64,000 nucleotides of DNA, taken from NCBI GenBank assembly GCA_029931535.1, contig JAQPZY010001548.1:1800001-1864000 (forward strand). Direction: 5' to 3'. Under the pieces are notes generated by a model. The model saw only the letters and a program-made list of their open reading frames with translations, had not been told where the DNA came from and did not search any database. This document shows, piece by piece, positions 27,283 through 55,165 of this stretch (its first letter is position 1; each line of letters begins with the position of its first letter). This stretch comes from Margaritifera margaritifera. Lineage: Eukaryota; Mollusca; Bivalvia; Unionida; Margaritiferidae. Position numbers and translations under genes: made by a program.

Positions 27283-27845
27283 CAGCCGCTTTAGGAAAAG
27301 ATGGCTATGATGTCACTTGTTTACATCAGGGTCTCCACCAGAGGCATAATCTGGTCATTCTTTCTAGCGAAGCTGCATTTATCCATTACAATATACAGAA
27401 TGGTGTGTCAATCTTGTGCAATAGGAGAATGTCCAGAAAAAACATACAGATGATAGGAGGGTGTTCAGTTTTCAGCTCTACTTCTCATAGACCAGAAGAG
27501 CTTATGGGATGGTCTGTTGTCCATTGTCCATCCATTAGAACAAGTTTGTTATCGCTACTCCTCCTAAACTACTTGGAGGATTGCCAAGAAACTTTACAAA
27601 CACATTCATCCCATGGTCTAGTTGATCTTAGATGGAAATGGTGCTGCTCAGACATCCAATATGGCCACCATAATGGCCATCTTGAAAATCTTCTTATCGC
27701 TACACCTCCTGAATGAATGAAAATATCAACATGGGGTTTTCACTAAAAGAATTCTTATGATGCCTTGTTGGTCCTAAATGAAAGTGGAAAGATTTAACAT
27801 CCGATATGGATGCCATGGCAGCCATCTTGAAAATCTTGTTAGCTC

Positions 27846-28138
27846 CCCCCCCCCCCAATATGTGTTTGACCGTCGCTGTTTCTCGTTGCCGACCCTAGCA
27901 CTTTTTTCCCCCTCCCCCCCCCCCAATTTTTTTTTTCTTTTTGTAGAAACAATCACATTGCCGAAATTGATTTGTGCATATAATTGAGCCGGTTTTGCCC
28001 AGTACTTTCAAGTGCTTGAAATATTATTTGATTTATATATAATGTTAAAAAAACAACAACAAAAAATAAAATAAAAATACCTGCCTACCCTATTTTTAAA
28101 ACCAGTGTAATAGGAAACACACATGTTATTTTTTTGTT
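27846..28138. mobile_element. Inserted segment of about 290 bp with poly-C tracts inside the family-2 array
   Basis: The array unit 'cttgaaaatcttgtta' breaks at about 27842 and its continuation 'ttattgctacttcttctgaa' resumes at about 28143. The insert contains two C-runs (about 27845-27857 and 27911-27923), a T-run, and CpG-containing sequence unlike the array. Possible duplicated 'tta..gct' flanks are too short to be decisive. The element type is unknown. Confidence 0.55.
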
Positions 28139-29146
28139 TGCCTTATTGCTACTTCTTCTGAATGGATTATCATACAGTATCAACATCGAGTTTTCACTGA
28201 AAGATTTCTAATGATGTCTAGTTGGTCCTAAATGAAAATGGTGCAGATCTAGCATCCAATATGGACACTATGGCAGCCATCTTGAAAATCTTGTTATGCT
28301 TCTCCTCCTGAATGGATGGTCATATCAACATGGGGTTTTCACTGAAAGACTTCTAATGATGTCTACTTAGTCCTACATGTAAATGAAAACGGTGCTAGAA
28401 AATGGTACCAATCTAAAGTCCAATATGGCCACCATGGCAGCCATCTTGAAAATCTTGTTATTGCTATTTCTTCTATATAGATGGTCATATCAACATGGGG
28501 TTTCACTTAAAGACTTCTTATGATGTCTAGTTGGTCCTAAATGCAAATGGTGCAAATCTTAATCCAATCCAATATTGCCACCATGGCAGCCATCTTGAAA
28601 ATCCTGTTATCGCTACTCCTCCTGAATGGATGGTCATATGAACATGGAGTTTTTACTAAAAGACCTCTTTATGATTTCTGTTTGGTCCTAAAAGAAAATG
28701 ATGCCATTATGACATCCATGGCAGCCATCTTGAAAATCTTGGTATCGCTCCTACTCCTGAATGGAAGGTCATATCAACATGGGGTTTTCAATGAAAGACT
28801 TCATATGATATCTACTTAGTACTAAATGAAAATGGTGCTGATTTGGGGTCCAATATGGCCACCATGGCCGCCATCTTGAAAATCTTATTGCTACTTCTGC
28901 TGAATGGAGGGTCACATGAACATGGCATTTTTACTAAAAAAACTTCTTATAATATCTACTTTGTCCTAAATGATAACGGTGCCAATCTGAAGTGCAATAT
29001 GGCCACCATGGCAGCCATCTTGAAAATCTTATCCTTGCTACTTCTAAACAGAAAGTTATATTGACGTGGGGTTTTCACTAAAGGACTTATGATATCTGGT
29101 TGGTCCTAAATGAGAATGGGGCAGACCTGATGTCCAATATGGCCAC

Positions 29147-29376
29147 TAGGGGTGAAACGATTCATCAATACTTTTGCCATATCGATACAAGAGGTGAAGA
29201 ATCAATACAAAACGATATCTACCCTATATAAGTTACTTTAATCTTCAGCAGTCATGAATAATTATTTGTCGTTTGCCTTCTTATTCTTTAAACTGAGGAT
29301 CGATAATGTATCATATCGTAGTCTGTGTATCATGAATCGTATCAATACGTGGCACAGGTGTATCGTTTCACCCCTG
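29147..29376. mobile_element. hAT MITE, 230 bp, with 8-bp target-site duplication
   Basis: The terminal inverted repeats are (t/c)aggggtgaaacgat (29147-29161 and the complement of 29362-29376). They are flanked by an exact 8-bp duplication ATGGCCAC (29139-29146 and 29377-29384), which is part of the family-2 unit. Eight-bp duplications and CAGGGGTG-like ends are typical of hAT elements. It has no coding capacity, so an autonomous hAT would be needed to mobilise it. Confidence 0.92.
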
Positions 29377-29586
29377 ATGGCCACCATGGCAGCCATTTTG
29401 AAAATCTTCTTATCGCTACTCCTCCTGAATGGGTGAGCATATCAACATCGGGTTTTCACTAAAAGACTCCTTATCATGTTTACTTGTCCTAAAGAAAATG
29501 GTGCTGATCTGTCATCTGATGTACTTCCATCCATTAGCACAAGTTTTTTTATCGCTGCTCCTAAACTATTTTCAGGATTGCCTTGA

Positions 29587-29588
<2 letters not shown>

Positions 29589-29668
<80 letters not shown>
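29589..29668. repeat. (AT)n microsatellite at the boundary of array and LTR
   Basis: About 80 bp of AT repeat with one 'atct' interruption, ending exactly where the gypsy LTR begins. Confidence 0.92.
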
Positions 29669-29672
<4 letters not shown>

Positions 29673-30074
29673 ATGACTAGGGGTAATGTAACAAAAGAAA
29701 AGACTCAAACAAGCTTTCAAGATTTAAATACAAATATTTAATTTCCTAAAATATTAAAATATTTTAACAAACAATCAAAGTGAAAGAATTAAAAATAACT
29801 TACAGTATAGAATATCCTTAAAAGTCCTAAATTGTTCTAAAGTTCACTGATCCGGAAGTTAATCCAAGTATTCCAAATGAAGTAGGTTTCGAATGAAACC
29901 TTCACTGTACTGATGTGCTAATAAGATTCGGTTATATCCAAGTGTTATAAATTCCAAATAGTCCTTGCGAATATGGAATATCACAAATTCTAGAAATGTT
30001 TCCGATAATTCCACGGAGCTGTATAATTATTAAAGTTTAAGAACAGTACTGAATTCCTAAATGTACTGAATGTA

Positions 30075-30159
<85 letters not shown>

Positions 30160-30656
30160 TATCACTGAAGTAGAATATCCACACATAAAATGAACCAATC
30201 TCATTTTATGACCTCTCAGGCCGAACAAACCATGAACGAATGCCTAAACACAGCAATACATCTTATATATATAGCTTCTGAATGCGCAGAACAGAGTAAG
30301 GAAAACCAATTTAAATTGTATTGGGACTTAAAAACAATTTAATCCTTCTAGAAAACAACCTTCTCTGAACCAATCAGAAACTAGGTTCTGCGTGACACCG
30401 CTAAAGTACCAGTGTACTGACGTTATTACGAGTCAATAAAGTATTGACTCTTAATTTGAAGTTCAACAAATTCTCACGCTCTACCTCACGTGATATGATT
30501 CATGTTTAACCAATATTTCCTAAGACCAATGTACTAAGTCACATTGAAATACCGTATATGTACTTTCTGCAAGACGACAGCTGTTAGACTATTATGCAGA
30601 GATCATAAACCTATACCACCATTTAAAAACCAAATAATACATAATTCCGTAATACC
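29669..30656 (-). mobile_element. Ty3/gypsy-type LTR (3' LTR of a minus-strand element)
   Basis: It starts tgttatgactaggggtaatg and ends ataattccgtaata. A close copy with cleaner ends (tgttacg...cgtaaca) is at 56512-57447. On the minus strand the LTR is preceded by a purine tract (aaggggaaagg, complement of 30657-30667), the expected polypurine tract. An (AT)n tract lies inside (30080-30162). The terminal TG/CA has decayed at the right end (ta instead of ca). Confidence 0.82.
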
Positions 30657-30930
30657 TTTCCCCTTAAAAAAAAGAAATGTTTTATACAATAAAACTTTCT
30701 TTTAGCATTTGCTTCTAACATATAAGTAACTGATTGCATAAAAAAATAATACATGATACAGTCATGTATACAAAACAATGCAAACTTTAAAGTTATGCAT
30801 GTGAAAGTGCATCAGCAATTATATTTTACTTAGAAATAGCCATAATCTTAGCTTCTATTGGTTTTATTTGTCTATGTCCCACAACATAACCTAAAAAGGT
30901 AACACAGGCACGACAATATATATACACATG
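30657..30930 (-). pseudogene. Ty3/gypsy pol remnant: RT fragment fused to RNase H end
   Basis: On the minus strand (30920 to 30788) the frame reads CRACVTFLGYVVGHRQIKPI, then EAKIMAISK, a stop, then NIIADALSHA. The first part is the RT block '(Y/F)LG..V...G..P...K', and the second is the 'N.(V/I)ADALSR' end of the gypsy RNase H region. The sequence normally between them (several hundred bp) is missing, so this is an in-frame-looking deletion. Only about 120 bp separates ADALSHA from the polypurine tract, with no integrase downstream of RNase H. The fragment is dead. Confidence 0.78.
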
Positions 30931-31039
30931 CACATGCATATATAGATTAAGATCCCAGATCATAACTATCAAGTCAAGCCACTTAGAACATAATTTTTCA
31001 TGGCACTGTGAGGTGTGACTTGCATTGTGTTTGAAAGAA

Positions 31040-31320
31040 GTCTCATTGTGATTAGTTTTATTGTCTTCTTTGATGAAGTATATCTGGGTCTACCTGTGCT
31101 TGTAGAGAGAAGATTTAGGCACTCTGTGGCTTGTGCCAGCTTGCACTTTGATTTTCATTATCTTGATTAATTGTATTGTCTACTACAATTTGATGAAGTG
31201 TATGTGGGTCTAGCAGGGCTAGGGGAAGGGTAGTGTTAAGTAATTAGGCCCAGTGTAGCTTGTATCTACTTGAGCAAGGAAGTTTGTTTTTATGGCTTTC
31301 CTTGACAGGCACAGATAAGA
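31040..31320. repeat. Two diverged direct repeats of about 110-120 bp
   Basis: Blocks 'gatgaagtatatctgggtct' (near 31072) and 'gatgaagtgtatgtgggtct' (near 31191) recur, with a following 'ggcttgtgccagcttg' / 'gtagcttgtatctacttg' segment. The 'ctgggtcta' motif is shared with the 23.93-kb palindrome. Confidence 0.5.
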
Positions 31321-31395
31321 GTAGACATTATAGGCCAAGTTGAGGATGGCTCAGGTGACACAGTGCTGGTGTTAGATCTATTGTTTATGTCTTAA

Positions 31396-32009
31396 CTCAT
31401 TAACTCCCTAGCACCACGTTTACGCGTCATGAGGTTGTACCCTACTTCCAAGCTCTTTAACATCAGCATCATTTAAGATACACTAAAGTGGATGGTATTG
31501 CAGGAAAGTAGACAGACATAGCTCTACAATGGTACCAAATAATGTCGACTTTCTACTCGCATTAAAAAGTACAGCGAACAAAATGCATTTTTTTAGACTA
31601 TTATTTTTAGGTCGAAAATTAACAGTTGCGGAACCAGAGTTTGTGTCCGGAATTTAGACTTTTTGGCCATAGATATAATGCAGACCCATCTGAACTGCAC
31701 ACAGACAGATGAACCTTTGCAAAAAGTAGGATAAGTTTGAGATTTGGGGAAAAAAGGGGCCAGGACACAAAAATCGGGGGTCCAATACGAAAAAAAAAAG
31801 AAAAAAAAAGAAGTCCAACTTTTACCTTTCTGCACATGTGCGAGCATAATAGCCAATGATAAACTATGTTTCTGACACACCTAAGCATCCGGCTAAACGA
31901 TAAACTTTCTTAAGCAGATGTGTTTTGCTGCATTCAGAAGTAACCCCAAAAATGCGATGCCTACCCCCATTTCACGTGAAAATGAAAAAAATCTCCAGGG
32001 GTTAATGAG
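31396..32009. mobile_element. piggyBac-like non-autonomous element, 614 bp, TTAA-flanked
   Basis: TTAA at 31392-31395 and 32010-32013 flanks inverted ends ctcattaac(t/c)cc. TTAA duplication is the hallmark of piggyBac-superfamily insertion. The interior has more CpG than its surroundings, which suggests a younger insertion, and no transposase. Short frames across it are not coding. Confidence 0.82.
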
Positions 32010-32013
32010 TTAA

Positions 32014-32658: not shown

Positions 32659-32659
32659 C

Positions 32660-32772
32660 ATCATTCAAAATCTTAGACATTGTTAAAAGGAAGAAATGGT
32701 CTTATCTTGATTTCCTGGAAATTCTTTTCGCCCAGTAGAGCATAAGTCCCTTCTAGGGACTCTTCTTTAATA
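32660..32772 (+). repeat. Isolated terminus of array family 2 with perfect 7-bp hairpin
   Basis: It contains ttcaaaatctta, 'aatggtcttatcttga', 'ctggaaattcttttcgccca', then hairpin AGTCCCT-tct-AGGGACT (32745-32751 / 32755-32761) and cttcttt. It has no 146-bp units beside it, so the terminus can move or persist without the array. Confidence 0.75.
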
Positions 32773-34844
32773 TTAAGTAAAAGAAATGCAGGGAAAAGGA
32801 AGATCATTTCTACACACACAGATGTCATGTCAATAGACGATTTGCATGATTTTGTCAAATCTTAAAACGGCCCTTTCTAAATCATCAGCCAAATTGGTAA
32901 GTGAAAAAACGACATTTATATTTTTTCTATTTAATTTCCATATATTGTTAGCCTCCACAAAGGAATACGTATACACTCAATTTTGCCCACGTACCGATAG
33001 TTAGGGACCGACTATTTAATGTTCGGATGAAGATCGTTTTTTTCCCCCTTTATCTCAAGATACCTTTTTTTTCCAACAAAATATGATAAATACAGATTTT
33101 TTTACAAATCAGAGCAAGAGTACCTGCTCATCAAGTATGATGTTAGAAAACTCATTACAGTAGTTTACCTAAGGGACATCTGTCCATAAAGTACAACATT
33201 CTTTGTTCCCTTACTCTTCTTTATAGTTAGGTTGCACTGTAAAATTTTCTTATACCTCTGTCTATCCATCCATCCATCCTCCCAAAGTTTTCTCAGGTAG
33301 ATTACAGTAAAAACAGCTGTAGCATAAAGGTGGATAACGGTGGATGTCAAAGAAATTGTGCATGATAATAGGTTAGAAAATTATGCTATAGGTATTTTGT
33401 TCTTTATTCAGAGTACTTGTTAAAATACTAAATGTAGTCATATAATATTTTTCTTACAAAGCACTAAAAATGCATTGATCATAAATAATATCAATTATAT
33501 TGGAAATTCACATGTAGTCAGAGTGTTGGCATTAGGCTTATGAATTGGAAAGTTAAGTATAAAGTAACACTTGCCTATTCCATCCAAAATTGGAAAGTTA
33601 GCAATGACAGCATTTAATAAATTGATTACAGCCAAAAGCAGAAACCTACATGTAAGGATTAATAGATGCACTTAGGTGAACAGATGAGATCTCTGACTGG
33701 CACATTTGGTCTTGTGTGCAGGTTTTAATAACTGTAACATCCATAAAGCAATAAAGAATACAGACCTTTACAAAAATTACACAATTAACTCATCCAGGAA
33801 TAGCAGATAATAAGACAAAAAGACAAAGGTCTCATTCACCCCAGTCATTAGGAATTGTAACTTCACAGGCTAGTGATTTAAAGCAGCACCTGTCATGCTA
33901 CAGTGAAAGCAGGGTGAGAAGATCTCTCATTATGACATTTTTGGCATTGTGCTAGTTTTGACAACAGATAAACAAGCAATACGAACCTCTGAACTCACTA
34001 TGTGCATCCATGACTGCTAATCCTTTAGAGGCAGAATGATATCATCATGGGGATTTTGATGACTATGGCACTACAGTGGCAGTTTGACAAGTACATACAG
34101 TACATCTGGTTTATGAACTTTAGCACACAACTTTACCTTATAAATCTAACCAAATCAGTAAATAGACCCAACTTTTCCCTCATTTTTTCTTTGCATCTTG
34201 GTTTGGAACAATCTGCATACTGTCTGCAAACTCTACTCATCAATCGTGGTTACAAAGGATTAAATAAAGGTCTGTAGCGTTTATATCTGGCTTTATGATA
34301 CAGTTGTTCGTAGCAGTCTTGTTGGTAAATGACAAGTGGTCACTCATAGCAGAGGTCACTTAAATCAGGTTTTAGTCTAATGTTATTTCATACTAATTAG
34401 ACACATTTGTCAATAATTATTTTTTTTAAAAATATGGAACTGGGATGAAAACTGGGATGGAAATTTCTCATACAACTACAGACAATCTTTCATTGTCTAT
34501 AATGTATATCAAACTATATAAACACTGTAGACTCAGATATCTTGTCATATAATGTGTCAAAAGATCAGGGTCTATTGTTTTGTTTTTGCCTTCTTCCAAG
34601 GGAACTGTAGGGGAAAAGTTTCCAAGGGAGAAAACAATAATAGATTTAGTAAATCACAAGATGTCATATAATGTCAGCATGTGGCAAATGAGCCCTCTGA
34701 CACAGGCATAATATCCCATAGTCAAGGGGAAATGCATACTGTCCTAAAATATATCCTTGTAGTTGGTCAACTGCAACTTGAGAATTTATAACATGATGTA
34801 CTAAACTTTTTATTTGCTGACATCAATGGTAGAATAAACATTGT
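32773..34844. other. Long non-coding stretch, probably intron or intergenic
   Basis: No coding motif. A short 'tctgtctatccatccatcca' tract near 33.26 kb resembles the lead-in of the tandem-array families but is not followed by an array. Confidence 0.5.
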
Positions 34845-34915
34845 AAGACCCAGATCTGACACATTATGTGACAGCAGATCCGAATCTACACTGCTTGCAG
34901 TTTGGCACATACTAC
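34845..34915. repeat. Imperfect hairpin related to the 23.93-kb palindrome
   Basis: The arms 'gtaagacccagatctg' and 'cagatccgaatctacac' are separated by acacattatgtgacag, with the same CAGATCTG / CATAATG layout but several mismatches. Confidence 0.65.
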
Positions 34916-34953
34916 ATATGAAGAAATACGTTTAACTTGTATTTTTGTTTCAG

Positions 34954-35043
34954 GGTGAACTCCAGTCTCCATGCCACTGTTGTCAGTGCTTTCTGTGTTT
35001 ACACTATACTGTACGAAAAGGAGCTAAATGAGGAACCAATCTG
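34954..35043 (+). CDS. Internal exon of a TLC-domain membrane protein (TLCD4/TMEM56-like), partial gene
   Basis: This is the only convincing host exon in the window. A strong acceptor (pyrimidine-rich tract ending tttgtttcag) precedes 34954, and gtatat follows 35043. The 90-bp exon encodes RVNSSLHATVVSAFCVYTIL, then YEKELNEEPIW. This matches the first part of the TLC (TRAM-LAG1-CLN8) domain as found in TLCD4/TMEM56: Asn-Ser, a conserved His in the first helix, a hydrophobic membrane segment, then an acidic loop ending in (D/E)P(L/I)W. The exon starts with the last base of a codon and ends two bases into the Trp codon, so the phases are consistent. TLC proteins are multi-pass membrane proteins linked to lipid sensing or synthesis. 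The exact function here is unknown. Flanking exons were not found in the window, so introns are probably long. It could be a pseudogene fragment, but the intact splice sites argue against that. Confidence 0.72.
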
Positions 35044-35143
35044 GTATATATCTCTCACTCTCATGTTTTTTATTTATTGCTTACTATCAGAGAAACTGTA
35101 CAATGTAGCTCAGAGACCAAATACATGTACTCTCTTCTAGTTT

Positions 35144-35479: not shown

Positions 35480-36685
35480 TTATGGTATGGTCCTGTGTCT
35501 GTCTTGCATTGTCCAGCAGAAATTTATGTTTTGAATTTGTTATAAAGCACTTGGCCAATTTCAGCCTAATTTAGCATAGAGCATCCTGGCATTAAAGGTC
35601 TTTTAAGTTTGTACAAGTGATGCTGATCCACCATTACATATGGCCACCATTACCAAAATTTAAAAAAAAAACTTTAAATTACTTCTCGAAAAGTGCCTTA
35701 CATAATTTGACCAAATTTGATAGAACGCATCCTGTCTTGAAGTGCTTTTATGTTGTACATTTAATGCCAATCCACTATCAAATATGGCCACAATTTGCTA
35801 AAAATAGAAAAATATTTGAATGACCTCTCAAAAACCTCATACCAGTGTCTGACTGAATTTTTTACAGAAAGCATCCTGGCATGAAGGACTTTAAAACTTG
35901 TACAAATGATGCTGAGCCACCATCAGATAGGCTGCAGTTGCTAAAAATAGAAATCCTTTCAGTGATTTCTCACAACCTAAAAAACAGAATTTAACCAAAT
36001 TTGACAGAAAACATTACTTTCAAATTTGTATGGTGATGCTGATTCACCATCAAATATTGCAGCCATTACTAAAGACAGAAAAACAATTAAATAACACTTC
36101 TTCTCAAAAACTGGTGAACAAAATTTCACTTTTCTACATCTTTGATGAAATCCACTGCAATAGTTCAGATGCATCAAAACTATCTTAGGCACTAACTTGG
36201 ATGCAACATAAAAATCAGCATACATGTGGGTTGCCATTATATTGCATTTTTTGGAAATAGTTGTATCTGAATGAAATGACTGAAACTGTTAGTGCAAGTG
36301 ACCTTTCCAGAACCAGCCAAATCACAACGGTTTGTTTTGTCATCCTATGCAAAGCCCAACAGGTTGAACTCAATAAACATTTTATTTTCTGTTTAAGCTA
36401 TAAGAGTGCTTTCTGTTAATGCGAGTAACATTCTTCTGTGGTTGGCAAAATCAGACAAAGTTTTAATGATTTTCTATGGTTGGCAAAATCAGACAAAGTT
36501 TTAATAATTTTCTTTTGGACTATAATAGGATGCAATAACAGCTCATTAATACCTGGAAAAAATTTCTATCAAAGACATCCTTCTGATCCAGAATTCCCGT
36601 TCATTGCACTTGCATTTGGCTATAAGGCAGATATCAGCCAAATCAATGATCTAAGGTCCATTTGGGCCTCTTGTTAGTATACTAG
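35480..36685 (+). repeat. Tandem-array family 1 (about 145-bp units), pearl/Helentron-like, with hairpin terminus
   Basis: About five units with 'gcatcctggcatgaagg' near 35581, 35728 and 35870 (spacing 147 and 142), each with '(a)ccaaatttgacagaaa', 'tgatgctgatccaccatca' and 'aatatggccaccattac'. The terminal segment 'tgcatttggctataaggcag' ... AGGTCC-attt-GGGCCT (36654-36669), then cttgtta, matches the end of the array at 51.2 kb. Confidence 0.85.
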
Positions 36686-37990: not shown

Positions 37991-38439
37991 TATCATCATA
38001 CATGTTACAGAACCAGGATTTCAAACCAGTAGTTTTACAAATTTTGATCAGTAGATTGGCCTCTAAACCAGTAGATTTTTTATCGGCATACATTTTACGT
38101 TTCAGGGGGATGGAAAACAAAACAATTGGGGTTTTTTTGTGCCATAATATGTATTCTCTTCATACTATAATAAAATAGCAAGTCTGAACATGAATCAGAT
38201 TTAGATTTTGATGGAATATGTTACAATAATAATTAATACGAGTCAGTATACATTCAAATAATGACAAATAAAAAGTTGTTTATCTGACAGTTCACTGCAA
38301 AAGAATTTTCTTTTATAAAATCCAATAGCATTTTTAGTTTCATTCACAAGATCACTGTCAAGTGACCACTAATGACATTCTTTGTGATTATTAAACTCCA
38401 CACCTTACAGGCTCTCAATAGTTCTCTGGTCCAGATTTC

Positions 38440-38729
38440 CCCTTGAATCACTTTCTATTTTGCGAAGAATTTAGATGTCCTCTCTGTATCAGCATTAAAA
38501 TGTTGTAATGACAGGACAAGCACATTCAGCCTGCAAAGAAGTTCTAACTTCAGTTTTCCTGCTGCTGATTTTGTAAGGTTGCTGACTACTCTCCAATACT
38601 CCTCCAAGCTATGTTCACCCCGAGGAGGAAGTTCCTGACTTGGATTTGGGATGTATTCCTGAGCCTCATCCTCAAGGGTTTCTTTCTCTTTATGGCTCAG
38701 ATCCAAAAATCTGTTGGCAAGTTTCACCA
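38440..38729 (-). pseudogene. hAT transposase C-terminal (hATC dimerisation) exon
   Basis: A good 3' splice site (tttttatttacag, complement of 38730-38742) opens the exon. The frame to 38455 contains HSLEEYWRVVSNL, LKLELLCRLNVLVLSLQHFN and ADTERTSKFFAK. This is the hATC pattern: 'YW..' then 'L..L...VLSLPHSNADTER.FS'. A +1 shift then continues as KIESDSRGNLDQRTIESL, the usual follow-on segment. The domain mediates hAT transposase dimerisation. The catalytic DDE core is missing between this exon and the N-terminal piece, so the element is non-autonomous. The conserved PHSN reads QHFN. Confidence 0.82.
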
Positions 38730-38971
38730 CTGTAAATAAAAAATAAAATAAAGATTGATTTAGACTTGAAAATTAAAACAAAAAAATACATGACGTATTT
38801 ATGCTTTTATGAATAATTTATCCAAACTTTAAAATTAATTATCTTGTAATATATTTTTAACTGTTTAACTGACATATTTTATCTAGGGCTTGAACTTAAT
38901 TTATGTGCATGAAAACTTCAAATAGTTTATGAAATACAAAAGATGCATACCTTTGAAACACACAATGCAAA

Positions 38972-39091
38972 TTAAGGCCAATGGCTACTCTCGTGCACAC
39001 ACTTAAACTCTGATATCCAAGCATTGTTGAACTTGTAATATTTCTTAGCTGGTGGTTTCTTAGCATTGGGAGAAAGCACACGTTTTGGCAT
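38972..39091 (-). pseudogene. hAT/ZMYM-type transposase N-terminal exon
   Basis: A 39-codon piece begins MPKRVLSPNAKKPPAKKYYK, then FNNAWISEFKCVHESSH, and is cut by a stop at 38972-38974. The following residues in frame (FALCVSK...CIFCIS) look like the start of a BED/TTF-type zinc finger (ALC..C...F.ISHGG). This layout matches the start of the repetitive ZNF862/ZMYM-like hAT proteins of aquatic animals. The equivalent ATG in copy 2 is at 62141-62143 (minus strand). Confidence 0.72.
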
Positions 39092-39709
39092 TTTGACATG
39101 AATTGAACAAAAAATGTAAGAGTTGCCCTCTTAAAACATCTTGAACAATACAATAATAATTAAACAAGACAAAAATCAAAATACTTACTCCACTGTCTCT
39201 GCCGAAATAATTTTTTATTGTCGGTCTCTTCATTTTATCTTCCCACCACTAAGGGTCGGCCGATTTTCATCATAGGCTCAAAAGATATCATGGACCACCT
39301 TTTATCCATTTATTACTTATAACACCTAAAAAAAAACCCATCCTGCATTTGGCCTTAAACTCCTCAAATTCCAACAATAAGGTAATCAGTTAGCAGCTTG
39401 CTGTGTACACATGTCAGCTGTTCTTTAACAATTCTAATCCTATTGCACTCATCATTGCACTGGTCATTGTACTGGTGGAACATTTCCGGTCCCCAGTAGA
39501 CTGGTTCTGGCTAGTTTCTATAATGTGTTGATGAAATGCGTAAAAATACTGGGTTTTTTTTGTTTTTTTTATAATTTTATTGATATTTTTTTTAATTCTT
39601 GTAATTTTCAAAAGTGGTAGATTTGAACTACTAAACAGTATGTGCGGTAGACAGCCTTTAAAATGGTATTTTTTGGCCTACCGCCGGTAGAATCACATGT
39701 ATGTATCAT

Positions 39710-41640: not shown

Positions 41641-42530
41641 TAGCCATACATCACATGGTTGACAACAATAAGTGCAAAAGTTCAGCTACAATCCGACCTT
41701 ATCTGCGTTTGAAACGAGAAAATATTGAATCGTTTAGTAATGCAAAATGGATGGGAATTGGTTTCAGGTTTGTAAGATGGTCGATCAGAGCCTGTGTTGT
41801 ATGCATATTATACACGGGTATTTACATTATTAGCAAGTCTTCTAAACAGCAGATTTAACATACTCTGCATATGATGATGCACAACATTATGGTAGCAAAT
41901 CAGTAATATCATTTATTTTTACCAGAACGCATTTCACAATATCTGCTGCTTAACAGACAGTTTTTGCCATCACATTACAAGTAATTATACCTGTCCAAAT
42001 GTGACCATCTATAGTATGGGCCCGTTCGATTCTGAATCATACACCACCTTCGGTCTTCGAAAGTATTTACCTGGGCCAGTTACTATCTAGCTGAGGATTA
42101 TTTAATCTCTATATACCTTACAAAATTTCAAACCAAACCTTGATCCGTCTACGCATACTTTTTTAATTTGGAAAAATAAAGTTGTTAACGACGAGTGCAA
42201 TGATAAAGAAAATGCTATTTATAGTACAAGCACTGCCTAATACACGTCATAAGGTGCATGGTTGCGACGCGGATATTCGCATTCATAAAACTAAAACACG
42301 GTACATTTAAACTGTATAAAACATGCACAATACAATCCATTATAATCAGTAAAATTAAAATAACGGCTACGAAACTACAGTGAAACAAATTATCTGAATG
42401 ATAAAAATGTAATGTAAGTAAAATATAGACTTTATCATTTTTTTGTTAATTATATGCCACACATTCCAAAATAATGAAATCATGAATAAAAATAGCATTA
42501 TAATATTCTTCTAAAAATCATAATAAAGTA
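41641..42530. other. Non-coding stretch with locally raised CpG
   Basis: CpGs cluster near 42020-42060, 42187-42200 and 42240-42305 (tgcgacgcggatattcgcat), unlike the CpG-poor surroundings. This would fit a promoter for a minus-strand gene starting near 41.62 kb or a young insertion. No TATA box or terminal repeats could be confirmed. Confidence 0.35.
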
Positions 42531-42534
42531 CATT

Positions 42535-43072
42535 TATTTGGGCCTTAATGAAAATGGTGCACATCTGAAGTTCAATATGGGCTCCACAGCAGCCATCAGG
42601 AAAATGTTATGGCAACTCCTCCTGAACAGAAAGTTATATCGACATGTTGTTTTCACCAGAAGACTTCTTATGATGTCTATTTGGTCCTAATAAAAATGAT
42701 TCCCCATGGACATCCAGTATGGCTGCTGTTGCCTGGTCCTAAATGAAAATGGTGCCAATCTTACGTCAAATATGGCCACCATGGCAGCCATCTTGAAAAT
42801 CGTGTTATCCTTTCTCTCCTGATCGAAAAGTCCTGTCGGAATGGGGTTTTCACCAGAAGTCTACTTATGATGTTTAGTTGCCCATAAAGAAAATGATGCT
42901 CTCTGACATCCAATATGGCCAGCAGAAAGTTTTGAAAATCTTGTTATCCCTCAATAATATCAGATGGTTTCAACTCTCAGCAGTTACAAAGAAAAAATGA
43001 TCTTATCTTGGATTCTTGGAAATTCTATTTGAATGGTAGAGTGTCAGTTCTTTTGAGGGATTTTTTTTTCGT
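42535..43072 (+). repeat. Tandem-array family 2 with degenerate hairpin terminus
   Basis: Three to four units, then the terminal segment 'ttcaactctcagcagttaca', 'aaaatgatcttatcttgga', and a hairpin agttctt-ttg-agggatt (43045-43061) that still pairs through G-T wobbles, followed by a T-run. Confidence 0.82.
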
Positions 43073-43574: not shown

Positions 43575-44225
43575 ACTGGTCATTCATGCATGCATCCATC
43601 CATTAGCACAAGTTTGTTATTACTGCTCCTCCTAAGCTATTTGGAGGATTGCCATGAAACTTTGCTCACACGTTCAGCCAAAGGTCTAGTTGATCCTGAA
43701 TGTAAATTATGCTGCTTGGACATTAAATATGGCCACCACATTGGCTAGCATGAAAATTATATCATTGCTTCTTCTCAGTGAAGGGTCATATCAACATGGG
43801 GTTTTAACTAAAAAACTTCTTATGATTGGTCCTAAGTGAAAATGGTGCCAATTTGACCTCCAAATATGGCTGCCATGGTGGCTATCTTGAAAATCTTGTT
43901 ATCGGTACCCCTTCTGAATGGATGGTGTCTAGTCGGTCCAAAATGAAAATGGTGCCAAATATTACATTCATTATGGCCACCACAGTGGCCATCTTGATAA
44001 TCTTGTTATCACTATTCATTCTGAATGGATGGTCATATCGACATGGAATTTTCACCAAAAGACTTCTTATGAAATCTGGTTTGTAATGAAAATGGTGCCG
44101 ATCTGACCATTATGAAAACCTTGTTGGCCATCTTGAAAATCTTGTTTTCAGTACTGTACTACTCCTTAATGGATGATCATCAACTTCAACATTGGGTTTT
44201 CACTAAAAGACTTATGATATCTAGT
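43575..44225 (+). repeat. Tandem-array family 2 with lead-in unit
   Basis: It starts catgcatgcatccatcc, then the lead-in unit (attagcacaagtttgttatt, ctcctcctaagctatttgga, ggattgccatgaaactttgc), then about four units. It has the same order as the 27.52-kb array. Confidence 0.88.
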
Positions 44226-45170
44226 TGCATGTATGCCAACCATTCTGTATTATGCATAGTGATTCTGCAGTTTTGGGTGTCACTACATCACTATGCTGAG
44301 TACAGCTGCACTACAGATTCTGTGTCCATCCTGCTGAGTTTCTATTGTCTGAGCATTTTGGTTGTTTCTATGTTCCAAAAGAGCACACAGACTGGACAAG
44401 CCATTGGGATTTTCTGGAAATTCTCATATTTAGCCAGTGATATTACAGCTACTGTATCACATAGGCCCAGGCATGAAGCGCATGTGAGTATAAGTGTTGA
44501 ACTGATTCTTTCTGCAAAATGACCATTATTAACAATGTCATCCTCATCCAAGTCATATCAGAATGATTGGCTTGAGTATACAAGTGAGGGGCCAGTATTT
44601 GAATATTGTAGAAATGATGACTGTGCTGTTATCTGCACAGTGTGTGTAAAAATGGTGTGTCAGGAATGACAATCTTTGCTAGTCAGGTGTCATTTACCCA
44701 CTTCATTCCACATAGCCCTTGGCATATTTAACTAGCTGAAACAGTGTCTATTGCTCTGCTATCACTTCTCTGTTATCTGATTGGATGCAGCTGAAAGAAA
44801 CTGATCCAATTAGATTGCTCATTACATTTATCTAGAAAGATAGTTTGGAATAATAGTAGTGGCCTCTGACAACAACAGCACATGTTGCATGTTGGTTTCT
44901 CCAATTTAAACCTTTCACACACAAGTTTTTCTTTGGAGGCAAGGCATGTTGACATCAGGAAAGTCACTGTATTGAGTACCTAACAGATCTAAATGAACAA
45001 ATGATTTCACTTGCTGCAGCTAGCAACTCTTTCATCCACAAGAGGGCACTTCTTCAAAACACTTTAGCTAGCTACATATGCCAGGGGTCAATGTGGAACA
45101 AAATGGATAGATGACCCATGGCTAGCAAAGATGCAGGCATGAAGAGTAGGGTTGATTTGTAGATGGCATA
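44226..45170. other. Non-coding, no gene recognised
   Basis: Includes open stretches of up to 136 codons (44112-44522) that begin inside the array and show no domain. Confidence 0.45.
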
Positions 45171-45545: not shown

Positions 45546-45679
45546 ACAGCTGTATCATGACCAGTGTACTGATGAAGAAATATTCCATCTACTTGACAGT
45601 GAACTAAACAGATGATCTATCCCATGGAAGAATTGTATTACCTTTGGTTCAGAACACTATACTCAGAGTTCGAAATTCT

Positions 45680-46587
45680 AGTACATCCAATATGTCCACA
45701 GTGTTGTCCATCTTTAAATCTTGTTATTGGTACTTCATTATGAATGGTCATATCGTGATGGGGTTTTCACTAAAAGACTTTTTATGATGTCAAATTGGTC
45801 CTAAATGAAAATGGTACCAAACTGACATCCAATATGGCTACCGTGGCAGCCATCTTGAAAATCTTGCTAATGCTACTTCTCATAAACGGATGGTCATATT
45901 GACATGGGTTTTTCACTACAAGACCTTTTATGATGTCTACATGGTTCTAAATAAAAATTATGCTAATCTTACATCCAGTAATTCCACCATGGTAGCCATA
46001 TTGAAAATCTTGTTATACACCTCCTAAATGGATGGTCTTATTGACAGAAGGTTTTCACTACAAGACTTCTTATTACATGTATGTCTACTTGGTACCAAAT
46101 GAAAATAATGCCACTTTGACATCAGATATTGATGCTTTGGTGGTCATCTTTAAAATCTTGTTATCACTACTCCTCCTAAACAGAAACTCATATTGACATA
46201 GGGTTTTCACTACAAGATTGCATATGCAGTCAAGTTTGTTTAAATAAAAATGGTCCTGATCAATGATGGCCATCTTGAAAATCTTATTATAACAAGTTGA
46301 CATAGGATTTTCACTAAAATACTTCTCACTCTATGTAGTTGGTCATAAATGAAATCGACCTTCCTCGCTTAAATGGATGACTTTACCAACATTAAAAAAA
46401 AACTTATTTCTCACAGTAACAGCAACTTTTCACTAAGACACTATTATAGCAGTATGTAGCTGGTTCTGAATGAAAAAGGTGTTTGTCTGACTTCCAACAT
46501 GGCACCATAGTGGCCATCTCGAAAATCTTATCACTGCTCCTTGCATGAATGATGACATTTACAAGGGTTTTTACTAAAAGACTTCTT
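45680..46587 (+). repeat. Tandem-array family 2, about six diverged units
   Basis: Units with 'atccaatatggctaccgtgg', 'cagccatcttgaaaatctt', 'ttttcactacaagactt' and 'tggtcctaaatgaaaatgg'. Unit lengths vary more than in the 28-kb array, indicating age. It ends where a SINE head begins. Confidence 0.85.
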
Positions 46588-46974: not shown

Positions 46975-47290
46975 ATTTTTGGTGGTATTGCAAAGAAATT
47001 CTGGCCTATGGATTGACGATGTCTGTCCGTCTGTTGACCCATCCGTCTGCCATCAACACTCGGGGTTTGCGTTTAGGGCATTTGTGCTTACCTTTGGGTT
47101 GAGCTCAGTTTCTTATGTTAGGGTTTGCATTTATGTCATTTTCTCAGACACTATTGCTTGTAAAGTCACATAAGTTAGTATTTACATGTGTCATGTGGAG
47201 TACTACACTGTCAGTGAAAATAAGGTCACTGTGAACAGTATTTCATAGACCAGTGATTTTGGTTGACCTTTGCACCACAGAAGAAACTAT
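46975..47290 (+). repeat. Tandem-array family 3 with TCTGTCC lead-in
   Basis: The lead-in 'gatgtctgtccgtctgttga' with 'cccatccgtctgcc' (47019-47052) is followed by a unit with 'tttctcagacactattgctt', 'gtcacataagttagtattta' and 'gtcactgtgaac'. Confidence 0.7.
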
Positions 47291-48824: not shown

Positions 48825-49230
48825 CTGAACTGATGATGTCTGTCCCTCTCTTCATCTATCTGCTCACCCATCCATCATCCAGCCTAAACACTCACATTAG
48901 TATTGCATTGAGGTAATTTTCTCAGACACTTGCTTGTAGAGTCACATAAGTTGGTATTTAGATGTGTTATGTAGAGTACTACACCTTTTGTTACAACTTA
49001 GGTCCCAGTGACCTATATTTTATAGTACATTGATTTTTGGTTGACCTTTGCATTTAGCTCATTTTTCTGGCACTATTGCCTATGGAGTCACATAACTTGG
49101 TATGTAATTGTCGTGAGGAGTACTGTAGCCATCAGTCTGCATTTAGTTTTTTTTTTATCACACACTATTGCTGATAGTCACATTAATTGGTATTTAGATG
49201 AGTCAATCTGTGATTTAAAGGAATCAAAAA
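48825..49230 (+). repeat. Tandem-array family 3 with lead-in, two to three units
   Basis: The lead-in is 'gatgatgtctgtccctctct' with 'cacccatccatcatcc'. The 'gagtcacataa' block recurs at 48939 and 49085 (146 bp), with 'tttggttgacctttgcattt' between. Confidence 0.75.
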
Positions 49231-49479
49231 AGCTATAGAAATTGGTACATCATGACTAAAAATGAATTTACAGTATTTGTCGTTTGCAATTCATCCATAT
49301 CATTTGTTGTTTCTGTCTGTGGTAGTGAACAGACCTCTGAACTTACCACTGATATGTCCAATAACATAAGACAGATTTGATTGACTGTTGGGTATATTTT
49401 CAGTACTAGAGGTATGGATAAGTTATGTGCCAGTTTTGTTTGAGATCCATCATGTGTTTGGCATCGTGCATTGGGTGTC

Positions 49480-51237
49480 CATCAACAAGTACTATTTTAA
49501 ACTTCGTGTCAAAAAGCACTAAACCAATTTTTACCAAATTTGGCACAGAGCATCTTGGCATGAAGGCCTTTCAAATTTGTACAAATGATGCCGATCCACC
49601 ATCAAATATGGCTGCCATTGCTAAAAATAGTAAAAAGTAAAAATCCTTTAAATTACTTCTTCTCAAAAACCACTGAACCGAATTTGAGAAAAAAACATCC
49701 TGTCAGGAAGACCTTTCAGTTTTGTACAAACGATGCAGATGTTACTAAAAATAGAAAAACCACTTTTACTAAAACTTAAAAAAACTTTAAGCAACTTCTT
49801 CATCAAAACTGCTGAATATAATTTTGACCAAATTTGACGGAAAGCATACTGGCATAAAGACCTTTCAGGTTTTTATAGATGATGCAGATTTGCCATCAAA
49901 TATGGCTGCCGTAACAAAAAACACGAAAACCTTTAACTGACTTCTTTGTACAAAAAAACATAAGAAAATTTGACAGCATTCATGATCCTGGCATAGAGGG
50001 CTTCAAAATTTGTTCAACTAATGCTGATCCATCATTAAATATGGCCACCATTACTAAAAATAGAAAAACATTTAGACAACTTCTCCAAAACTGCTGAACA
50101 TAATTTGGTCAAATTTGACAGAAAGCATCCTGGCATGAAAACCATTCAGATTTGTACAAATAATGCCAATCCACCATCAGATATGGCCACCATTAATAAA
50201 ATATAAAAACCTATATAGCAACTTCTCCAAAAAGATCAAATAGAATTTGACCAAACTTGACAGAAAGCATCCAATTATGAAGACCTTTCAGACTGTATAA
50301 AAGGTGCATATCTGCCATCAAATAGGGATGCTATTACCAGAAATAGAAAAACCTTTGAATGACGTCTCAAACATATTTTTAACAGAAAGCCTCCTGGCAT
50401 AGAGGGCTTTCAAATTTTAATAATTTGTGCCAATCTACCATCGAATATGGCCAGTGTTACCGAAAAAGAATCAGACCATATCTGATAGAAAGCATCCTGG
50501 TATAGATGGCTTTTAAGTTTATGATGCAAATCAACCAGCTGAAATGAGAAAAACCTTGAAATGACCTCTTCTCCAAAACTGTTGAATTGAATTTGACCAA
50601 GCTTGACATAAAAGATATTTGCACGAAGACCTTTTAAGTCTATAAAAATGATCCTGATTCACCATGGCAGTCATTACTTCAAATAGATAAACCTTTAAAT
50701 AACTTGATCACAGCATAGAATTTAACCAGTCTTGATAGAAAGCATGCTGGTATGAAGATCTTTCAAATTTATATGAATGATACCAATCTGCCATCAAATA
50801 TCGCTACCATTACTAAAAAGAGAGACATATTTAAACAACTTATCAAAAACCACTCAACTGAATTTAACCAAATTTGAGAAAGAGAGAAATAGTGTCCTGG
50901 CATAGAGGGCTTTCAAATTTGTACATTTGATGCCAATCCACCAGGAAATGTAAATATCATTTATACAACTTTATCTAAAAGAAACTGAAACAGAATTGGA
51001 CTAACATTGATATGAAGCATAGGGGCCTTTGAATATTGGACAAATGATGCTGATTTGCCATCAGGTACGGTTGAAGATGTAAAAACTAGAGAAACCATGA
51101 AAGAGTTTGTTTTCATATCATATGCAAAGTAAAGTATTGGAAGAAATTTCAACAAAAAGCACAACTGCTCTTGCATTTGGCTCTTAGCGAGATTTTAGCC
51201 AGGTGAGCAATCTTAGGCCCATTTGGGCTTCTTGTTA
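49480..51237 (+). repeat. Tandem-array family 1, about 12 units, with hairpin terminus (pearl/Helentron-like)
   Basis: Units of about 145 bp carry 'gcatcctggcatgaag', 'cctttcaaatttgtacaaa', 'tgatgctgatccaccatca', 'aatatggccaccattact', 'aaaaatagaaaaac' and 'gaatttgaccaaatttgac'. The end, 'tgcatttggctcttagcgag' ... 'ccaggtgagcaatct' ... AGGCCC-attt-GGGCTT (51215-51230), then cttgtta, matches 36.65 kb. Arrays of this kind are known from bivalve 'pearl' elements and other non-autonomous Helentrons. Confidence 0.87.
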
Positions 51238-52020
51238 CATATTTTGTCTTACTTGATAAGCCTGGACTACTTCATTCCATGATTTCGTTTTATATTGGTC
51301 TGTAATGAATTTGATAATGTAGAGTTTTACTGATTTTCACTCACTGTTTGAGGGAAGGTGGTTGTAAAAATAACTAAAATAACCAGGAGAAATGTTTGTC
51401 ATACAAATATTTTATTTACACAATTTTTCCATCCACATATGAGCATAAAAATATATACATGTTGATGTATGCATTCTAGTTTATTGCAGTGGGTGGATTT
51501 TCATCTGACATGGTGTATGCAGGTGTATGGACCTTAACCTATACTGTTTAGTGCCACCTGAATGCATGGGGGTAGGGGCTTGACATGTGTCTTTATTGTC
51601 AAATGAGAATGGACTATCTTCTTCAAGTAGATGGAGGTGCTTGATCTATTGTTTCTGTAACTAAACAAAATCTATGCATGACACATTGGAGACAACTCAA
51701 ATAGGATAATATGTATGGAACTAGGCATGAAATCAATAACAAAGACGGGACATGTTTAACATTCATTTGAAGTAAAACATGTCATAGACAGTTGTCATCA
51801 TAATAAAAAAATATTCAAAATCCAGGTTTCATTATTTACATAACAAAAGGATCATTTAAATATTTTAAGGATTATTTTTCTTTTATTTTCAAGTGGGTGT
51901 GTTGATATTATACAAATATATGTACCAAATATTTTCATATATGACCTTTACATACATGTTTGAGAAGAATAGATGAAAGGGTTTATATTACTGTCATAAG
52001 ACAAGGTGTATTATGTTGTG
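51238..52020. other. Non-coding, no gene recognised
   Basis: AT-rich, with no coding or repeat signal. Confidence 0.5.
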
Positions 52021-52021
52021 A

Positions 52022-52330
52022 TGTTGTCCATCTATCCATCTGTCTATCTGTTACCAATGTTGTTTCTGCTCAATAACTCCAGTTGTCCACCATCTATAGT
52101 TGTCAAACTTTGTGGATGGCTTGCACTTGGGGTAAGGAAGAACCATATTGATTTCAGGATCAAAAGATCAAGGTCACTGACTGAAAGATGACAACTTGTT
52201 TCCACACAATAAATTAGTTCTACATCACAGACCTGGACCAAACTCTGTGGATGACTTGCATTTGCAGTAAGGAAGAAGCCTATCAATTTTGGCGTCTAAA
52301 GATCAAGGTCTGTGTGACTGAAAGAAGAAA
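52022..52330 (+). repeat. Tandem-array family 5 with CATC/TCTG lead-in
   Basis: The lead-in 'gttgtccatctatccatctg' + 'tctatctgtta' is followed by two units with 'tttgtggatggcttgcactt', 'ggggtaaggaagaac' and 'aaaagatcaaggtcactgac'. Confidence 0.8.
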
Positions 52331-53626
52331 AGGTGCATATACTTCAGTAGAACAAAATATATTTTAAAAAATAACAAAATAATACACGTTAGGGATTATA
52401 ATGAATGATTTGTAATTTAAACTGAAGAAAAATATAAAATTTAAATATAACAAGTAACACTCTAAGTTGATAATAATTTGAGAATGTTATATTTATAGGA
52501 CTAGTTTATAAAAATGAAGACAAAAAAAATCAATTACAATCTTGTGTATGAAGAATTTTTATGAAGGAAAAAACTGAGTTAAAATTTATTAATAACGCAA
52601 TGTAGCCTCTAGCTGAACAACTAAAAGTGTCTCTTATATACACCAAAAAAGGTATCTAACATGGTTGATGCAATCTTTAAAAAATCTTGAATTTGTGAGG
52701 TTACCTTGAAAACTCTTTGAATTTTGAAAAAAGTTGATTTTATCCTTCAAAAGTCCTTGAATTTGTTGAAAAATTTCTTGGATTTTCCCACAACTCCTTG
52801 AATTTGCCTGAGTGAATACAAAAAGTTAAAACTGAATAAAATATACAACTTTCTAAATTCAGAATTTTTGTTATTTACTTATTTTCCAAAACTAATGAAT
52901 AAATAAATAAAATGTGATAAAATTCGGTGGATCAAATGACACGTGGCGTGTAATCATATGTAGCAGATGGAGTGGTGTCCATTTGCTGTAATGGCATGCT
53001 AATTTGTTTTCTTTTTTCTTCTGCTTTTGTACCAATTTATGCAGTGATAAACAAAGTAACATGGACAAAGTTCGATTTCTGTAAGAAATAATACTCCTTG
53101 AAAACTTTTGGATGTCCATGAAAATGCCATAAAAATTCCTTGGAAAAACAGCTATCTGAGGCTGTATAAACCATGATCTAAGTATGAGAATTTCTTTACA
53201 TAAAGAAGAAAGACTTTGCTTTAAGAAGAACATATTTCTTGTTAAAAAAACAAAGAAACATACCTAAGTTTTTATGTTTATTTGCAGAGAAATGTTGATA
53301 TAATCTTAAGATTTATAACGCTTGTATATTTTTAAGCAAGTTTGATATATTTGGTTAAATAGGGTTTTACAGTTTCTACCATTGCCATATTAAAGTACCT
53401 GAAACAATTGATGTTTATATGTTATCACATGTTTTTGTGCATTATTTTAAGGCATTTGATATATTCAGTGCCATTACTCATAAATTAATTTAAATGTATA
53501 TTTTGTATTTTTGCTTTAAATTTATTTTTTTTAAAATAACCCAATAAGCTTTCCTCCAGACACACTTCCAAAATCCATGACCTTAAAAAAATCATGAGAA
53601 ATTCAGTAATCAACCGTGGCTGATGA
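52331..53626. other. Non-coding, no gene recognised
   Basis: AT-rich. It includes several near-repeats of 'cttgaatttgt' around 52.69-52.81 kb. No domain is seen in the 113-codon minus frame at 53233-52892. Confidence 0.5.
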
Positions 53627-53697
53627 GATTTTGGAAAACAAACCTGCAACCTTCAGGTCACAAGTACAAGGTCATAACCACTGAGCCACTGCAGCTC
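53627..53697 (-). mobile_element. tRNA-like SINE head only
   Basis: The complement reads gctgcagtggctcagtggtt (A box) ... gaaggttgcaggttt (degenerate B box), with an anticodon-loop region around cttgtactt. No SINE body is detectable to the left. Confidence 0.6.
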
Positions 53698-53819
53698 TAT
53701 TGGGCATGGATTCCAATGGTTTCCAAGTTTTGACTCCAGGGGTGGGGCCCCTGGAGGTAAGGACAGACCCAGAAATCCATGCTGACTGCAGAGATTAACT
53801 CCACTTGTACTGCTAAGTA

Positions 53820-54315
53820 AGTGTATAGTGCAACTCGTCCCCATGTTTTTGATGGATTGCCATGAAAAAACTTGGCAAATATTATGGTCATCACATGAAG
53901 ATCTACATATAGATGAATTACTTTGCCCCCCACAATTTTTTTTAGAGTTAATTGCCCATTTTGACTATTAGCTTAATACAGTGTATGGCAAAATCTCATT
54001 AGTACATCTAGTCAGCCAGTGTTTTTCAATTGCCATGAAAGTTGGGAACTATTATGGTCATCACATAAGATGTACATATCGACTAATTATTGTGCTTACT
54101 TAATTTTTGTTAGAGTTATAGCCCTTTTTTTACTTACAATTAGATGCAATGTATGACAGAATTTTGTGAATGCAACTACTCTTGCAGTTTTTAATGGACT
54201 GCTGTGAAACTTAGTATATATTATGGTCATCATCAGAAGATATGCATGTTGACCAATCATTGTACTTGCAATGTTTTCACAAGAGTTATACCCTTTTTTT
54301 GTACTACAAACTTAT
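53820..54315 (+). repeat. Tandem-array family 4 (about 170-bp units), three units
   Basis: 'attatggtcatca' recurs at 53881, 54051 and 54220. Each is preceded by 'ttgccatgaaa(c/g)tt' and followed by 'agatctacatat.ga..aat', 'agagttatagccctttttt'. Confidence 0.8.
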
Positions 54316-54489
54316 CTCCATCATGGGGTAGAAGTTGGTTGCGGGAAAGTTGGGGGCATATTTTTGTAAGCAAATTACTCAGCATTACTCTAGTTTCCAT
54401 TTCAGATATCCATTTTACAAGATTTGCTTTAGCATAGTCGGTAATTAGGGTTTTGCATTATTGGGGGGTTCTATTGTAATCACCTTTTA

Positions 54490-55165
54490 CATATGTCTGT
54501 CTGTTTATCTGTCCATTCATACTTCTTGTAACCACTATAACTCTGGAACCATTGAACACAATTGGATACCATTTTGGTAGGTGAAAAGCATATGTCTTTT
54601 CAGGTCCAATTCTGATGTAGTAGTTGATCTTTTTTCCATCAGTTTTGAACTTCCTCTACAGCAGATTGTTGTAACCACTGTAGATCAGGAACCATTCCAT
54701 ATTCTGATGCAGTTGGTGTGTACATATCTTCATAGACCTAGATGTGCCTTTTATGGGTTTTGCCTCATCAGCTCGAGAGTCATGCTTTTGACACTTGACT
54801 TTGTATCGTCACTTGTGATGTTGCTTGTAATCAGCATAGCTCAAGAACTAAGCAACATATTCTGATGCAATTTTATATGAATATTGTCTCAGATTTATGT
54901 GTGCCTTTTATGGGTTTAGTCTTGAATGCTCAGTTTTGGACAGAGTAACAGCTCTTGTCAAATACATTCTTGTCTTCACATGGAAACTTGGAATGTTGCC
55001 TGCAATCAGCATAGCTCAGGTTCTGATGGAATTTGGTAAGAACATTGACTGTTAGACCAAGATGTGCCTTTTATGGGTTTTGTCACATCTACTACAATCT
55101 GGACAGAGTTATGGTCCTTGTTGATCAACTTAATATCGTTACATTTGATGTTGCTTGTAATAGGT
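54490..55165 (+). repeat. Tandem-array family 6 (about 160-bp units), three to four units
   Basis: It starts after 'atgtctgtctgtttatctgt' + 'ccattcata'. 'gtgccttttatgggttt' recurs at 54744, 54901 and 55064, with 'ttgcttgtaatcagcatagc' and 'tctgatgcaattt' blocks between. Confidence 0.8.

Follow-up and report, generated by a model that had tools for sequence, protein, structure and literature searches.

The 64,000 nucleotides of Margaritifera margaritifera DNA analysed here (contig JAQPZY010001548.1, below C1119, positions 1800001-1864000; 'the window') are spanned by a TLCD4 (TMEM56)-like gene on the plus strand and carry a series of short tandem arrays, which we interpret as non-autonomous Helentrons (HINEs). 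All 15 elements recognised in the window by BLAST of the array families against both strands lie on the plus strand, along the gene; minus-strand hits were few, came from one query, were short and weak (E 8e-4) and fell inside plus-strand arrays. Here and in a sample of other genes, HINEs within host introns probably share the direction of the gene in almost every case. This agreement is the new part: the elements themselves are ordinary for bivalves and of a kind already published in oyster.

Host genes and tandem arrays of the window

The TLCD4-like gene was found by tblastn with protein queries (best E 2e-24). Its exons on C1119 lie at 1826456-1826686, 1834954-1835043, near 1855959, 1871140 and 1877690, and at 1880946-1881260. 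The tblastn matches within the window, all on the plus strand, are the first coding exon at 26456-26686 (part of the 5′ untranslated region, the ATG and a frame running to DWHSR, with splice acceptor and donor), an exon at 34954-35043 (VNSSLHATVV..EEPIW) and a partial one at 55959-56006 (DSPMVRTSCAIVVGYM). Since the first coding exon has a splice acceptor, a 5′ intron exists. A TLCD4 paralogue, also on the plus strand, occupies C1119 1918628-1933986. On the minus strand lies an ALG14 gene: its exon 2 corresponds to PF08660 (E 1e-8) and has a splice acceptor, exons 3 and 4 gave E-values of 1e-7 and 4e-4, the latter under Pfam's cut-off, and exon 1 was located by motif, its donor fitting in phase. 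ALG14 and TLCD4 are divergent neighbours (C1119 1702239-1881260) and are close neighbours in human too. Fifteen tandem copies of a 35-bp sequence (96% matches) at window 26758-27282 begin about 70 bp past the first TLCD4 coding exon. An Rfam scan of the window gave one match only, a minus-strand tRNA at 10220-10290 located in a repeat.

Tandem Repeats Finder and near-diagonal self-BLAST detected arrays at 16.5, 20.3, 27.7-29.5, 35.6, 42.5, 43.7, 45.7, 48.9, 49.5, 52.1, 53.8, 54.7 and 59.7 kb with shifts of ~103-174 bp, and one longer-period array at 11.0 kb; unit lengths across the families are ~100-180 bp. The set extends past the 27.5-55.2 kb covered by a preliminary description of this DNA, with elements also at 11.0, 14.3, 16.5-22.1 and 59.7-60.4 kb. 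That description had placed TCTGTC/CATCC-type lead-ins before the tandem units, and our scan for the density of GTCT/GTCC/ATCC rotations on both strands of the window bears this out: at threshold 14 it gave peaks on the plus strand at 27496, 33240, 47015, 48837, 52012 and 54477 and none on the minus strand, five of the six lying directly 5′ of an array and the one at 33.24 kb having no array. Lead-ins at 43.59, 35.49 and 49.48 kb score under this threshold, the latter two having been described as weak from the start. Markov sequences were without a lead-in peak in 10 of 10 cases at each of thresholds 15 and 17, the only ones tried.

All elements described in this paragraph are on the plus strand. 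To family 1 belongs what is apparently a single element at 16476-22115, with units at 16476-17061, 20107-20742 and 21791-21994 and a right flank with palindrome to 22115, broken by a minus-strand long interspersed nuclear element (LINE) and other DNA. The next family 1 element begins with left end, lead-in and first units at 27465-27841 and continues with units at 28136-29593, which include a second lead-in block at 29526-29593; the right flank at 32682-32769 (palindrome AGTCCCT..AGGGACT and CTTCTTT) is taken as its right end. A candidate end at 27.84 kb was rejected, as the same family 1 unit resumes at ~28.14 kb after ~295 bp of other DNA. Further family 1 copies are an element with worn right flank at 42524-43069 and arrays at 43575-44227, with a weak lead-in, and 45677-46587. 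Family 2 is represented by elements at 35480-36676 and 49470-51238, whose 3′ hairpins lie at 36655-36675 and 51216-51236. A family 3/4 array, found by BLAST and self-BLAST, occupies 10995-11690, a family 3 lead-in and unit 47015-47280, and a family 4 lead-in and units 48830-49250, one stretch of the latter being 81.6% identical to family 3. Family 5 (lead-in and units) lies at 54480-55175. Family 6 comprises a remnant at 14260-14384, followed by a 31-bp tandem array at 14408-14749, a lead-in with units at 52010-52335 and an array at 59729-60380. Family 7 units occupy 53800-54330, and their orientation leans on the likeness of one block, GATTGCCATGAAACTT, to family 1. The orphan lead-in from the density scan lies at 33240-33279. 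Arrays interrupted by other DNA were counted by hand as one insertion.

Other repeats share the window. Minus-strand LINE-like open reading frames at 17061-20106 were apparently inserted within the family 1 array, and a family 1 unit array contains, at 29146-29376, a short element whose ends, ggggtgaaacgat..atcgtttcacccc, are inverted as judged by eye. A dispersed element at 29669-30652 and 56512-57445, also present at C1119 1784611-1788755, has copies up to 97% alike and on the same strand. Repeated coding remnants at 7579-8938, 37997-39703 and 59291-62756, also on one strand, have the look of a DIRS-type retrotransposon (by eye from the open reading frames); a related stretch lies on the plus strand at C1119 1727184-1728392, inside ALG14 intron 1.

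Ends, units and identity of the families

The preliminary description had compared the arrays with HINEs and pearl elements. This stands for family 1, whose assignment as a HINE is supported by its full anatomy, seen in copies from several contigs: a left end that includes an inverted repeat, a GTCY microsatellite, units, a subterminal repeat and a 3′ palindrome. Twelve left flanks from several contigs gave the consensus TTTTTAGCTCTACTGGTCATAGACCAGAAGAGCTTATGGGATGGTCTGTTGTCC; the right-flank consensus CAGTAGAGCATNAGTCCCTTNAAGGGACTCTTGTT was built from 20 places, 7 of which arise from the palindrome matching back on the opposite strand. The consensus carries a subterminal inverted repeat, GCTCTACTG/CAGTAGAGC, of 9 bp (the HINE norm being 11-12 bp), a length attained by 3 shuffles in 5000. 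The left flank also holds an inverted repeat complementary to the 5′ subterminal repeat, AGCTCTACTGGTC..GACCAGAAGAGCT, which pairs at 12 of 13 positions by eye and has a perfect core of 6 by script. The right end consists of AGTCCCT..AGGGACT and CTCTTCTTT (AGTCCCT..AGGGACTCTTCTTT) near 32.74-32.77 kb and recurs in mutated form near 22.09-22.1 kb, so that family 1 right flanks are seen in the window at 22.1 and 32.8 kb, with a worn one at 43.05 kb. The ends of the element are T-rich, TTTTTAGCTC.. at the left and ..CTTGTT at the right. Across the assembly of 2,453,371,941 bases in 1696 contigs, to which all genome-wide counts refer, the left end was found at 6196 + 6242 places (12,438 in total, at most 3 of 28 positions mismatched), and the reversed control at none. 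Family 1 ends are alike between copies; ends differing within a family had been named beforehand as evidence that would speak against such elements.

Family 2 shows an identical hairpin plus TCTTGTT at 36655-36675 and 51216-51236, each with one mismatch to the pattern and with an expected number of 0.00. Pattern matches at the right ends confirm that families 1 and 2 each terminate in a hairpin with CTTCTTT or CTTGTTA behind it, as had been proposed. Among the best 40 of 3327 candidates scored for the family 2 3′ end, 18 of the 39 genome matches other than the window itself stop at 51235-51237, just past CTTGTT, and 7 of the 39 stop at query position 262, before that end. The end of a further family, family 8, at C1119 1713779-1713819 matches the 3′ end of family 2 (E 1e-6). 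A 3′ palindrome close to the end is present in families 1, 2 and 8, and for families 2 and 8 this common 3′ end, together with a lead-in or left end, makes HINE identity plausible. Families 3-7 show only units, with lead-ins only for 3, 4, 5 and 6. A general scan for hairpins before CTT[GC]TT with stems of at least 6 proved too loose: it gave two matches on the plus strand (32762, and 61139 outside any array), none on the minus strand and 0-1 in each Markov sequence. Relatives found with the hairpin pattern in viral_contigs and genome_contigs were discarded as chance, the loci being without similarity to any family, and two 19-mers searched in viral_contigs had no match.

Comparison of unit profiles showed a distant relation between families 1 and 2 (best E 1.2e-4, that profile drawing no hits from shuffled sequences), and by eye AGCTTATGGKATGGTC can be seen in the left flanks of both. 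No other related pair emerged, families 3/4, 5, 6 and 7 having no detectable unit relation to the remaining families and families 2 and 8 giving no significant match (E 2.1). A 'gaaactt(t/g)g' block had been described as recurring in the units. The profile comparison relates no pair except families 1 and 2, so that across families 3-5 the block is an eye-level likeness only. Diversification by replacement of the unit, also suggested earlier, is supported for part of the set, namely families 2 and 8 with their common 3′ end and unlike units; families 1 and 2 have units that are distantly related. Both patterns have already been described for oyster HINEs, where group 2 corresponds to replacement of the unit (PMC7492417).

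Orientation relative to host genes

In the 264 kb round the window every kept element from 1.7769 to 1.8905 Mb is on the plus strand. Minus-strand elements in this block are a family 1 copy at 1.8955 Mb and family 8 copies at 1.7138 and 1.7230 Mb; both of the latter lie inside ALG14 intron 1 and are hence sense. Counting only what lies within coding spans, TLCD4 has 14 elements and ALG14 has 2, every one of them sense. Outside them, five plus-strand elements lie upstream of the first TLCD4 coding exon, and downstream there are two on the plus strand (1.8816 and 1.8890 Mb) and the minus-strand one at 1.8955 Mb, which has no assigned gene, a Pfam scan of the minus strand of two stretches (L179, L168) having given no match. 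Four family 8 hits, at 1823690 (in the window), 1887849 and 1911453 on the minus strand and 1810431 on the plus strand, were judged by eye to reflect a short interspersed nuclear element in the library copy and were left uncounted. As a rough control, repeat pairs touching a listed array in the block were 452 direct and 68 inverted and other repeat pairs 82 direct and 62 inverted, figures that are descriptive only, as the latter group still includes family 8 pairs and one element yields many pairs.

Other genes were sampled as seven 10-kb stretches from five ion-channel genes marked by PF00520 exons, each stretch lying between exons on one strand, which we take to belong to one channel gene; this is weakest for contig C246. 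There, in a plus-strand gene, three copies of family 1 and one of family 2 are all on the plus strand. The plus-strand gene on C1458 carries families 6 and 3/4, both plus, and the minus-strand gene on C1405 family 7 and family 2 (the latter in two pieces, counted once), both minus. On C805 no element matched the HINE library in the stretch examined. A long intron there (L192, C805:4070001-4080000) carries high-identity tandem repeats, 95% over 1.7 kb, which likewise do not match the library. With a fifth gene, on C738, the channel genes amount to 8 sense copies and 1 antisense (one-sided p 0.02). Orphan lead-ins are sense in L187 and antisense in L189 and L186, the last counted with the stretch there, and bring the total to 9:2 (p 0.03). 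When both gene sets are pooled, 24 of 25 copies are sense, or 25 of 27 including orphan lead-ins; in five of the six element-bearing genes all copies are sense, and the sixth (C738) supplies the one antisense copy.

Genome-wide, a 19-base core sequence from the left end of family 1 occurs at 1311 forward and 1258 reverse places and thus shows no overall strand bias. For a test of adjacent pairs, the first 100 of these places listed were taken, and merging places less than 3 kb apart gave 99 elements. Among the places listed, adjacent pairs less than 100 kb apart are on the same strand in 17 of 18 cases (p 7e-5), including 11 of the 12 that are 30-100 kb apart. Agreement is 3/5 at 100-150 kb, 2/5 at 150-300 kb, 9/18 at 0.3-1 Mb and 5/13 beyond (16/36 above 150 kb). 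The 100-kb limit was chosen after a first look at 180 listed places, in which 8 of 8 pairs below 100 kb, 7 of them independent, were on the same strand; the 19-mer sits inside the 28-mer of that first list and the lists have places in common, C34 and C58 giving examples, so they are not independent. Their union, with C1119 left out (254 elements), gives 23/25 below 100 kb and then 4/7, 3/9, 15/31 and 17/37 in the successive classes. What the pair test demonstrates is coherence on the scale of genes; that copies are sense is shown by the introns.

Causes of the bias and known systems

On our reading the arrays are non-autonomous Helentrons, built of a left end with inverted repeat and GTCY-type microsatellite, a short unit array and a palindromic right end, and presumably copied by the rolling-circle HUH Rep/helicase of an autonomous Helentron, as is established for the family in general. 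The enzyme would join a single-stranded copy to single-stranded target DNA, and if the coding strand bared by transcription were the usual target, insertions would come out sense. Such insertion into transcription-exposed single strands is in our view the likeliest cause, at a little under an even chance; it would account for every family equally and without a heavy load. Its bacterial precedent is IS200/IS605 (PMC5371812), and for Helraiser a model of strand displacement, the fork being at the donor, has been proposed (PMC5876387).

Several observations weigh against this account or against the sense bias and HINE identity on which it builds. The spans of the channel genes follow from same-strand exons on either side, and each span from few exons. 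The minus-strand gene on C738 holds an antisense stretch on the plus strand (L186), which resembles family 2 between the units and the right end, and the orphan lead-in of L189 is antisense as well. Two pairs less than 100 kb apart, both on C22, are of opposite orientation. As to anatomy, the subterminal repeat was not significant in four single family 1 copies and was no better than shuffles in two single family 2 copies; no right end was recognised for families 3-7 by the single hairpin scan used, which also missed the hairpin of family 2. The last point is an asymmetry of splice-acceptor-like sites: with a scoring matrix that was typed by hand and not trained, 19,650 bp of HINE sequence contain 27 such sites in sense and 62 in antisense at threshold 7, and 41,071 bp of other TLCD4 intron, used as control, 108 in sense and 94 in antisense (Fisher p 3e-4 for HINE against control). 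At thresholds 8, 9 and 10 the sense:antisense counts are 12:23, 2:13 and 0:4 in HINEs and 55:50, 31:17 and 13:5 in the control.

This asymmetry is what selection would act on. HINEs may insert both ways, antisense copies in introns being lost through mis-splicing at the repeated acceptor-like sites on their reverse strand, and we regard this as a serious contender, if one that falls somewhat short of even odds. The antisense excess sits in families 1, 2 and 6. Families 3/4, 5, 7 and 8 are without it, with 10 sense and 5 antisense sites in all, but their copies within genes are sense in 9 of 9 cases, which favours insertion over selection. A bias near 24:1 also exceeds the intronic biases known for other elements. 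We slightly favour insertion, with selection close behind. Polyadenylation signals were rejected as a cause, AATAAA occurring 16 times in sense and 12 times in antisense.

Copies could instead enter the lagging-strand template, with forks running with transcription. A precedent exists in the bacterial IS200/IS605 elements, whose orientation follows replication (PMC5371812). The switch in orientation between the divergent ALG14 and TLCD4 genes would fit this too. Strand agreement, however, ends near 100-150 kb, closer to the size of genes than to that of replication domains, which in animals usually extend over several times that length; numbers above 100 kb are small. We consider replication an unlikely cause. 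Less probable still is local duplication, in which neighbouring copies agree as products of tandem duplication of the stretch that contains them: pairs only 7-20 kb apart could in some cases have arisen so, and TLCD4 has a tandem paralogue, but unrelated families agree in the window, the family 1 copies there are only ~65-85% alike, and the agreement of listed pairs extends to those 30-100 kb apart. That the arrays are unrelated local satellites with common lead-ins and ends by chance, as the dissimilar units of families 3-7 might suggest, is highly improbable given a chance expectation near 0 for the lead-in and 3′-end motifs and the 12,438 left ends of family 1, and is refuted for families 1, 2 and 8.

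To our knowledge, how Helitrons choose their target strand is an open question, and in the open-access literature searched we found no description of a gene-strand bias of Helitrons, Helentrons or HINEs. As a speculation that we hold to be possible though doubtful, animal rolling-circle transposons might choose the strand by transcription, the Helentron enzyme placing its single-stranded copy in the coding strand left bare where (germline) genes are transcribed; thousands of HINEs would then record which way transcription runs across the genome. If so, HINE orientation would be a readable fossil map of gene strand and, via the age of the copies, of past germline expression. Any annotated bivalve genome offers an immediate check of the bias. 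Should insertion be its cause, the target would be single-stranded and linked to transcription; should it be selection, the bias shows splicing filtering transposon-borne satellites.

The closest known system is Cg_HINE of Crassostrea gigas, which likewise has a subterminal inverted repeat (subTIR), an inverted repeat and a GTCY/GTCC/GTCK microsatellite on the left, a right flank with subTIR and palindrome, and central repeats mostly of 140-180 bp, some elements combining like flanks with unlike units; it differs in sequence, and probably in being from another bivalve (PMC7492417). Cg_HINE integrates in both orientations on the oyster assembly, and we found no gene-strand analysis in the accessible portions of that paper (PMC7492417); the result agrees with the even genome-wide counts obtained here and has no bearing on genes. 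Pearl of Crassostrea virginica and Anadara, named there together with DTC84 of Donax and MgE of Mytilus, is by its description a similar non-autonomous element with short arrays of ~160-bp central repeats and has been re-classed as a Helentron (PMC7492417). DINE-1/HINE elements of Drosophila and mites share subTIRs, an inverted repeat, a microsatellite, optional tandem repeats, a 3′ palindrome and T-rich insertion sites; their hosts are insects and mites, and a gene-strand bias was not found in the accessible part of that account (PMC4067079). IS200/IS605, finally, resembles the proposed mechanism in its single-strand transposition and in an orientation set by the host's exposure of single strands; it is bacterial, uses another transposase and has a bias that tracks replication, whereas the bias described here appears to track genes (PMC5371812).

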